A stretch of 64,000 nucleotides of DNA from Rickettsia hoogstraalii (GTDB lineage Bacteria > Pseudomonadota > Alphaproteobacteria > Rickettsiales > Rickettsiaceae), in the NCBI RefSeq assembly GCF_000825685.1, contig NZ_CCXM01000001.1:248001-312000 (forward strand), read 5' to 3'. The position numbers and the translations under genes are program-made. Shown here in pieces: positions 18,839 through 55,905 of the stretch. The notes beneath the pieces are model-generated. The model saw only the letters and a program-made list of their open reading frames with translations. It was not told where the DNA came from and made no database searches. Positions within the stretch are counted from its first letter, which is position 1. Every line of letters starts with the position of its first letter.

Positions 18839-19034
18839 GTCATTCCTGCGAGGTCTTGTTGCATGGACACCTGAATCGTCATTGCGAGCGACTGAAAGGA
18901 GCGTGGCAATCCAGAAAATAATTAAAAAAATGCTATTAATTAGCATTTTTACTGGATTGCTTCGTCAAAACTTGCAGTTTTTCCTCGCAATGACGGATAA
19001 ACAGGTCCACGCAACAATACCATACGGGAATGAC
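18839..19034. repeat. Three-layer nested palindromic repeat
   Basis: Outer arms are GTCATTCCTGC and CGGGAATGAC. Middle arms are TTGTTGCATGGA and TCCACGCAACAA. The inner palindrome 18877-18995 runs from CGTCATTGCGAG to CTCGCAATGACG around an ACTGGATTGC/GCAATCCAG core. It lies between convergent plp and acpS and probably forms strong RNA hairpins in both directions. Confidence 0.9.
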
Positions 19035-26773: not shown

Positions 26774-26787
26774 TTGTTTATTAGGTG

Positions 26788-27105
26788 TCTTTCCAAACCA
26801 GCTTATAGAGAGGAATTTAAAGGAGACACGGAAGTGCTTGCCACCACAGCGTACGTAGAAGTACGTGAGGATGCGAGTAGGTCTTGTTGCGTGGATACCC
26901 GAATCATCATTGCGAGGAGCGAAGCTTTGCTGCAATCCAGAAAAATAATTTAAAAAATTCTGATTTATAGAATTTTTTTACTGGATTGCTTCGTCGAAAC
27001 TTACAGTTTCTTCTCGCAATGACGGAAAAATTGATCCACGCAACAATGCCATGCGAGTCTAGGCTCGACGTATTAAATTACCTCTAGAAGCGAAGTTTGG
27101 AAAGA
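26788..27105. repeat. Rickettsial palindromic element (same family as the one in the rhodanese gene), disrupted
   Basis: Arms TCTTTCCAAAC (26788-26798) and GTTTGGAAAGA (27095-27105) bound an element whose body GAGGAATTTAAAGGAGACAC, then AGTACGTGAGGATGCGAGT, then TTACCTCTAGAAGCGAAG matches the one at 55.6 kb. Removing the nested insertion and one duplicated 8-mer leaves about 138 bp. Confidence 0.85.
26879..27050. mobile_element. MITE-like palindromic element inserted in another repeat, with 8-bp direct repeats
   Basis: Terminal inverted repeats are CTTGTTGCGTGGAT near the left end and ATCCACGCAACAATGCC at the right. Inside is the CGTCATTGCGAG-family palindrome. It is flanked by ATGCGAGT at 26871-26878 and 27051-27058. 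The uninterrupted relative at 55.6 kb has this 8-mer once, which supports a target-site duplication. Confidence 0.85.
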
Positions 27106-27381
27106 TATCTATTCAAATAAAAATACATACACATTACAGCAAACAGTAGCTATAGCTCCAAGACATTTACATATACCGCAACAGTTAGATTAGTATTATT
27201 TAAGGAGCTAGATTGTGCATACTCTTGTACTTCTAAACTATTACGGTTTGACATAGTTACATTTTGACTTTAGGATTAATATTTAAAATTATATAACAAT
27301 AATTTTTAATCTGCAGCTATTTATTATTAAAATTTTTTAATTAATAGCCTACAAATTATAATGAAATAAGAAATAACTTTT

Positions 27382-29450: not shown

Positions 29451-29807
29451 TGCTAACTAAAGATAAATGTCGTAATGAGCTGAGCTTGTTGCGTGGTTCA
29501 ATTTCACCTCTGTCATCCCGTGGCTTGACCACGGGATCCAGTTAAAAATACTAATATTATTAGTATTTTTTATTGTTTTTTGGACCCCGGGGTCAAACGA
29601 ACTAGGTGACACAATGGGTTTTACCGGTCCACGCAACAATACCTAATGAGCTGAATGACTGAAAGGAGCTTATCAATCTAAGAAAATAATAAAAAAAATT
29701 TTAGTTTACAGAGTTTTTAACTAGATTGCTTAGTCAATATACTTTTAAATTTCTTTGCAATGGCGTTAATTTATTAAATAATCTATCTTTATTTAGCAAT
29801 GCCAATA
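29451..29807. repeat. Degenerate composite palindromic repeat
   Basis: The left arm GCATTGCTAACTAAAGAT and right arm ATCTTTATTTAGCAATGC are inverted copies, related to the perfect arms of the 13495-13659 element. The body includes a decayed CGTCATTGCGAGCGACTGAAAGG-type palindrome that has been split by the insertion at 29484-29643. Confidence 0.75.
29484..29643. mobile_element. MITE-like palindromic element with 11-bp flanking direct repeat
   Basis: The element begins GCTTGTTGCGTGG and ends CCACGCAACAATACC. Inside is a GTCATCCCGTGGC palindrome. TAATGAGCTGA is present at 29473-29483 and again at 29644-29654, as expected for a target duplication on insertion into the older repeat. Confidence 0.8.
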
Positions 29808-55378: not shown

Positions 55379-55905
55379 ATGTCGGTTCAAAATATCTGTT
55401 CTACAAAAGCTTATGATATATTAATTTCAAATGATAATGCTTTTCTTGTGGATGTTAGGAACTAAAGAAGAGTGGCAACAAGTTGGGATACCTCATTTAG
55501 ATAATAAAAATAAGGTGGTCTTTCTAAGTTGGCAATTGAATAAAGATTTTGAAGATAATTTTTTATTTTTTATCTATAATTAAAGATAAAATAGAGGCAA
55601 CAAACTTCTTACAAACGTCCACTAATAAGGAGGAATTTGAAGGAAACACGGCACGCAGCACCGCAGCGTACAAAAAAGTACGTGAGGATGCGAGTACCGG
55701 ATTGACGTACAAATTACCCTTAGAAGCAAGTTATGCAAGAAGTTTGTTAATATTTTTTCTGTGCCGTTCAGGATATAGGTCATTTATCGCAGCAAATTTT
55801 ATAACTAACATAGGTTATAAAAATTGTTATAATATTAGTGACGGCTTTGAAGGAAATAATCAAGACAAAGGCTGGAAACAAAATAACTTACCGTGGCAGT
55901 TTTAA
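55379..55905 (+). pseudogene. Rhodanese-like protein with inserted palindromic element, frameshifted
   Basis: The ATG at 55379 gives MSVQNICSTKAYDILISNDNAFLVDVR, then a slip near 55462. It continues as [35 protein letters not shown], slips near 55560, then reads [18 protein letters not shown]. It enters an inserted element ([20 protein letters not shown] to LPLEASYAR) and resumes as [44 protein letters not shown], with the rhodanese active-site loop CRSGYRS. The stop at 55903 directly abuts the dnaA start. Two slips make it a pseudogene, while the element itself is in frame. Confidence 0.87.
55628..55740 (+). repeat. Rickettsial palindromic element (protein-coding insertion)
   Basis: The body from about GGAGGAATTTGAAGGAAACAC through AGTACGTGAGGATGCGAGT to TTAGAAGCAAGTTATGC has the same sequence as the element at 26788-27105. 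In the rhodanese frame it encodes about 38 residues ending LPLEASYAR. Ends are approximate. Confidence 0.85.

Follow-up and report, generated by a model that had tools for sequence, protein, structure and literature searches.

RPE-4, RPE-6 and RPE-7, three palindromic elements of Rickettsia, reportedly go back to Ogata in 2002. By their published descriptions these are palindromes tagged with ATGAC, a motif that Matsutani et al. noted in all three, where many copies exist and different types can occupy one orthologous site (PMC3767692). The account of them in that 2013 paper is given without transposon ends or a target duplication and leaves hotspots versus common origin undecided, and the table of a 2007 review marks the target duplication of Rickettsia palindromic elements with a '?' (PMC2229807). 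Insertion sequences (IS) that target REP palindromes have been described, including ISNm1106 of the IS5 family, in a paper that lists R. conorii without IS (Tobes and Pareja 2006, PMC1525189). CGTC-type REPs have the tag TGACA/TGACG (PMC3733652). Within the IS5 family, 8 tabulated rows of the IS903 group show 9-bp repeats, and the other groups 2-6 bp (PMC3281130). Our search of an open-access library turned up no passage that ties palindromic elements of Rickettsia to ends of the IS903 type and none that states their target duplication; an earlier description is possible.

Here, we analyzed a window of 64,000 nucleotides of Rickettsia hoogstraalii (contig C1, positions 248001-312000, of the genome termed G000), where an element with IS903-like ends interrupts an older palindromic element. 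The ends of IS903 start with GG and carry TTGTTG, as do the ends described below, and the likeness to the IS903 group extends to a 9-bp duplication and to an NF033579/PF13737 transposase on full relatives. The inner element differs from that group in being 171 bp long without a transposase and in having copies that favor REP palindromes. It shares with RPE-4, RPE-6 and RPE-7 the ATGAC-tagged palindromes, the many copies and the presence of different types at one orthologous site, in contrast to their published description without transposon ends or target duplication (PMC3767692). The described REP-targeting IS likewise use the REP as a target (PMC1525189), but here REPs house MITEs as well as, in related genomes, full IS, and the MITE has REPs of its own in its interior.

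Results

A 171-bp element interrupts RPE1 downstream of mgtE

The outer palindromic element lies downstream of mgtE at 26783-27110 of the forward strand, where the borders were set by the symmetry of its arms, AGGTGTCTTTCC...GGAAAGATATCT. It was identified as RPE1 from TIGR01045, its inverted arms and uninterrupted orthologues. The left part of the interrupted copy matches profile positions 1-31 of 48 with 53.2 bits, and an uninterrupted paralogue at 55628-55740 of the forward strand scores 76.2 bits, placing both copies in RPE1 above the TIGR01045 cut-off of 30. The frame around the paralogue is rhodanese-like (Rhodanese, 18.9 bits, under the cut-off of 22.2); at 55549-55905 the RPE1 is carried in frame in a short rhodanese-like ORF, directly upstream of an ORF that was named DnaA-like by its look.

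The piece that splits the outer RPE1 spans 171 bp at 26880-27050 (forward strand) and was recognized from the symmetry of its ends and its fold. Inverted-pair comparison places the terminal inverted repeats at 26880-26896 on the forward strand, GGTCTTGTTGCGTGGAT, and at 27034-27050 on the reverse strand. Counted from GG, GGTCTTGTTGCGTGGAT and GGCATTGTTGCGTGGAT, the latter read on the other strand, match at 15/17 positions, and the ends TTGTTGCGTGGAT form a perfect 13-bp inverted pair. With at most one mismatch this 13-mer occurs 10 times in the window versus 0.05 expected, and the element folds with -43.8 kcal/mol (z -9.06 versus shuffled sequence). Of the 14 stop-free stretches of at least 22 aa that overlap the area of the inner element, six were scanned, where no transposase family matched; the one NCBIfam model to match the scanned translations was RPE1 (TIGR01045), in the flank, and a Pfam hit below its cut-off was taken as chance. 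A plasmid collection searched with the inner element gave no match at E 1e-5.

A preliminary description of this DNA had proposed a 172-bp element with inverted ends inside a rickettsial palindromic element, flanked on both sides by an 8-bp duplication. The interruption and the inverted ends are borne out, with RPE1 as the outer element, while family symmetry (GG...CC) sets the size at 171 bp. The 8-mer ATGCGAGT does flank the insert, at 26871-26878 and 27051-27058, 180 bp apart, and is present once in the uninterrupted paralogue, at 55688-55695, as had been described. It occurs three times on the forward and once on the reverse strand of the window, so its mere presence says little and its position at both ends of the insert is what matters. 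The family rule extends the duplication from 8 to 9 bp, where the left copy is ATGCGAGTA (26871-26879) and the right copy ATGCGAGTC (27051-27059), both on the forward strand and differing at the ninth base; taken alone, the window copy fits an 8-bp duplication plus one extra A equally well. The chance of agreement at 8/9 or better at a fixed place is ~1e-4, assuming equal bases.

Orthologous sites reveal the state before insertion

The end of mgtE was recovered in 21 of the 23 genus genomes searched, G000 counted. RPE1 beside mgtE is uninterrupted in G014, G015 and L008, an endosymbiont of Omalisus with an mgtE sequence identical to that of G014, where the sequence runs through the site without a seam and ATGCGAGTC, with the 8-mer inside it, is present a single time. 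Interrupted copies are those of G000, G001 and G002, the mgtE sequence of the R. australis record L003 being identical to that of G002. The other 16 of the 21 genomes gave no match to RPE1 beside mgtE, with AGATATCT kept in G022. Inspection of these sites indicates that the pre-insertion state is the orthologous RPE1, and not the copy at 55.6 kb, a paralogue that had been put forward in this role; an empty site, which was to be looked for in other genomes, is present. The nesting, together with the uninterrupted RPE1 of L008/G014 and G015, shows that the inner element is the younger of the two, as was also suggested. The proposed event, in which a mobile palindromic element entered an older one and duplicated its target, is supported by the empty site of the orthologues and by the 9-bp duplications around sister copies.

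Several further observations concern the same region. In G022 (L109), the RPE1 place downstream of mgtE has shrunk to TTATTAGATATCTATTC with a single copy of AGATATCT, a sequence that borders RPE1 on both sides in L008, which may reflect either near-precise loss or an 8-bp duplication of RPE1 itself. In G017 (L127), a TTGTTG-type end pair lies downstream of mgtE (2008 and 2179, reversed locus), where no RPE1 was found. L001, L002 and L004, which have no RPE1 beside mgtE, were considered as the pre-RPE1 state and rejected, as remnants suggest deletion.

A second element of the same end-type, with 162 bp and another core, lies in the window at 29482-29643 (forward strand) between copies of TAATGAGCT at 29473-29481 and 29644-29652 of the forward strand, which agree at 9/9. 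Its site is empty, with TAATGAGCT once, in R. rhipicephali (L001) and in R. kotlanii (L004, with an mgtE sequence equal to that of G007). In R. australis (L003) the insert is present, but its left end is shortened.

The site beside mgtE may have been hit once or twice

At the base where G000 carries 171 bp, G001 and G002 carry a 161-bp element with a different core. Two independent insertions at this identical base, one in the lineage of G000 and one in that of G001/G002, by the same mechanism, are an evenly balanced possibility. By the sequences compared, the interrupted base in RPE1 is a hotspot: in G014, whose mgtE copy is empty, RPE1 at L151 is interrupted at the same base as the mgtE copy (ATACGAGTA/ATGCGATTA, 7/9), as is another RPE1 in G002 (L148), where the 9-mers have decayed to 4/9, and a further RPE1 in G021 (L012) was hit 8 bp away (ACGTGAGGA, 9/9). 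These copies came from searches that detect only RPE1 sequences close to the patterns used; one such search gave 33 places, of which only the three mgtE places match exactly, and 5 of the 30 others were inspected. The differing cores, 171 versus 161 bp, also argue for two insertions, whereas the left 9-mer ending in A, common to all three mgtE copies, argues against them.

A single insertion that G000, G001 and G002 inherited from their common ancestor, with the core later swapped by recombination between copies, is a credible history that we rate somewhat below an even prospect. It is consistent with the same base in three genomes and the shared left A, and with the mgtE tree, which places the three genomes in one part with support 92/94 and leaves the fork open; double-tagged flanks elsewhere suggest that recombination between copies occurs. 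Against it, cores and lengths differ, and G000 shares its right flank, CTAGGCTCGACG, with the empty RPE1 of G014/G015 and not with G001/G002. Because the base is a hotspot, two insertions are slightly favored. The mgtE insertion may predate the split of G001/G002 from G000.

Many copies of the family are flanked by 9-bp duplications

To describe the family in G000, the window and 38 loci (105 kb) were sampled, where loci were chosen non-randomly by matches to the inner element or its ends. From 51 left and 45 right ends, 31 end pairs were formed; unpaired ends and pairs of more than 450 or fewer than 40 bases were left out. At 9 bp the flanks of 10 pairs agree exactly, of 14 within one mismatch and of 17 at 7/9 or better. 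Lengths of 5-8 and 10-14 give no agreement at all, whether exact or with one mismatch allowed, and at length 4 none agrees exactly and 2 do within one mismatch. Shuffling the right flanks over 1000 rounds gave means of 0.77 exact pairs (max 4) and 1.98 within one mismatch (max 7). This agreement between the flanks of the symmetric (GG...CC) family elements sets the length of the duplication at 9 bp, from which the window copy departs at one position. No duplication within one mismatch was found for 17 of the 31 pairs.

The sample from other genomes comprised 20 loci in five genomes, where 22 left and 16 right ends yielded 14 pairs once those reaching to within 30 bases of a locus edge had been excluded as well. 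At 9 bp, 1 pair is exact and 1 more lies within one mismatch, with none at lengths 4-8 and 10-13; that is to say, flanks disagree in 12 of the 14. Recombination between copies could explain those that have no duplication. A survey of 261 genomes from this order recovered the exact end pattern in 29, comprising all 18 of the genus in the draw and 11 others. It has 57+69 matches in G000 and 0 for a reversed-pattern control, and with up to two mismatches there are 347 matches versus 3 for the reversed control.

Many insertions lie at a fixed distance from REP tags and carry REPs themselves

Reading outward, TGACA/TGACG (TGACR) begins precisely at position 10 in 20 of the 62 junctions, which places 17 of the 31 G000 elements at 9 bp from a REP tag; at any other position it begins in at most 4 of the 62. 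In other genomes the count at position 10 is 9/28. Frequent target 9-mers are TCCTCGCAA (4/20) and ACGCGGGAA (3/20), and the RPE1 target ATGCGAGTA resembles TTGCGAGGA, the reverse complement of TCCTCGCAA. Three elements, at window position 18852, L103 and L104, have the tag on both sides, where the first of them (18852-19021) has it at position 10 on each side next to unlike 9-mers. Such double-tagged flanks are not expected from simple insertion, so recombination between copies is their likely cause, and the flanks of 18852-19021 are probably recombinant. IS ends lie closer to the REP loop in G238, from another genus, and position within the REP thus differs between groups. Targeting of the hairpin apex was considered too, where 7 of 17 target sites had an inverted-repeat score of at least 8 versus 2.9% of 3000 random places, only partly above random; this reading was dropped because the fixed distance to the REP tag fits the sites better.

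REP tags also occur at both inner borders in 26 of the 31 family elements, with left tags starting at base 23-34. Within the inner element of the window, the left internal REP (26905-26918, forward strand) has the tag CATCA, a variant of CGTCA, followed by TTGCGAGGA, a 9-mer that serves as target elsewhere (L095). The right internal REP (27011-27024, reverse strand) reads TTCTCGCAA and then an intact TGACG on the forward strand. The core displays the CGTC-type REP features of a [CT]GTC tag, AT, a palindromic stem and an inverted pair. Elements therefore contain the kind of site that is used as a target, and nesting is permitted. At L090, a 342-bp element surrounds a 162-bp one with both duplications at 9/9, and removal of the inner element and one 9-mer leaves 171 bp. 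L093 has a 267-bp element around a 173-bp one (8/9 and 7/9), and at L151 a 349-bp element within RPE1 surrounds a 170-bp one (7/9 and 8/9), the outer element minus the inner and one 9-mer again measuring 170 bp.

Full insertion sequences with related ends

An IS of 1122 bp in G258 (L044), from another genus of the family, has ends GGCTTTGTTGCGTGGATAG/GGCTTTGTTGGGTGGATAG and a duplication, GGCTCGTAT, at 9/9. Its 323-aa transposase matches NF033579 of the IS5 family with 228.7 bits (cut-off 140) in addition to PF01609 and PF13737. Within the genus, two IS of 1150 bp in G020 are bounded by GGCTTTGTTGCATGGC/GGCGTTGYTGCATGGC, one base off the pattern, where the L072 copy encodes a 321-aa transposase (NF033579, 228 bits; PF13737 also matched). 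Neither the two G020 IS nor L042 and L043 have a matching duplication. The flanks of the G020 copies, L072 and L078, look swapped between them, as after an inversion between the two. G016 has an end-plus-transposase fragment in which the exact end, GGCATTGTTGCGTGGATAAG, stands next to a transposase start, and G003 also has an end-plus-transposase fragment. IS ends at L052-L071 (G258, G238 and G252) are close to contig ends, many of them in REP-like palindromes, and G258 flanks suggest 10-bp duplications (GGCGCGGGAA).

Searching G000 with PF13737 and the L044 protein found no such transposase. The PF13737 transposases of the genus were rejected as direct partners, as seven of their ten loci have other ends, GGCTTTGTTCGGAAGGG; two (G020) have ends of the inner-element kind, and the tenth is truncated where its contig stops. 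L044 and L072 both carry the NF033579/PF13737 transposase, and we infer from duplication length and ends that the full relatives belong to the IS903 group within IS5.

Discussion

The inner element is probably a non-autonomous MITE of the IS903-like group of the IS5 family, inserted with a 9-bp duplication by a transposase acting in trans. It has the terminal inverted repeats (15/17 bp), the target duplication (8/9 here; exact in 10/31 of the family sample) and the short, transposase-free length (171 bp) of a MITE. Two ends, GGNNTTGTTGCRTGGA (also written GGCATTGTTGCGTGGA), enclose an inverted pair of CGTC-type REP palindromes. A transposase from a full insertion sequence, supplied in trans, would recognize these ends, a 9-bp staggered cut would be made in RPE1 at ATGCGAGTA/C, which resembles the REP 9-mer TTGCGAGGA, and repair after insertion would double the 9 bp. 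Sequence directly documents the end structure, the duplications of 9 bp, an orthologous site that lacks the insert, the fixed-distance REP tag and related full IS with such ends; a transposase of the IS5/IS903 kind would then have moved the MITE, acted in trans and since been lost from G000.

Movement of the inner element, whose core is a REP pair, by a tyrosine (RAYT/TnpA-REP) transposase is very unlikely: RAYT movement is not known to leave such a target duplication, and both the 9-bp duplication and the presence of IS5-type ends at the outer borders (GG...CC) speak against this reading, despite the CGTC-type REP tags in the core. An association with RAYTs, which would favor this reading, has been described for GTAG REPs (PMC3733652). 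Scarcely credible at all is an origin with no transposition, where the direct repeat reflects coincidence or gene conversion between RPE1 copies and REP clusters. REP and RPE sequences are abundant enough for mosaics and 17/31 pairs have no clear duplication, but the seamless empty site in orthologues, the low chance of 8/9 agreement together with exact duplications at 9 bp and at no other length from 4 to 14, and the second element at 29482-29643, whose empty sites in two named species largely refute this reading, all stand against it.

There is a further possibility, which we offer tentatively and hold to fall short of probable: nesting may feed itself, where the cargo is the REP palindrome preferred by the transposase and each insertion adds landing sites. 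The elements at L090 and L151 are layered cases of this sort, and L151 made the possibility somewhat more likely in our view. If true, such nesting would recursively build Russian-doll palindromes and would explain both the mixed RPE-4/6/7 'families' at one site and the ATGAC motif, and IS903-type transposition would be the missing engine for a large class of Rickettsia palindromic repeats. For one class of Rickettsia palindromic elements, the ends are now defined, the duplication is set at 9 bp, orthologues show the site with and without the insert, and a transposase family stands as candidate, which together make its mobility testable. The constant 9-bp spacing to the REP tag offers a possible reason for the accumulation of different palindromes at the same places.
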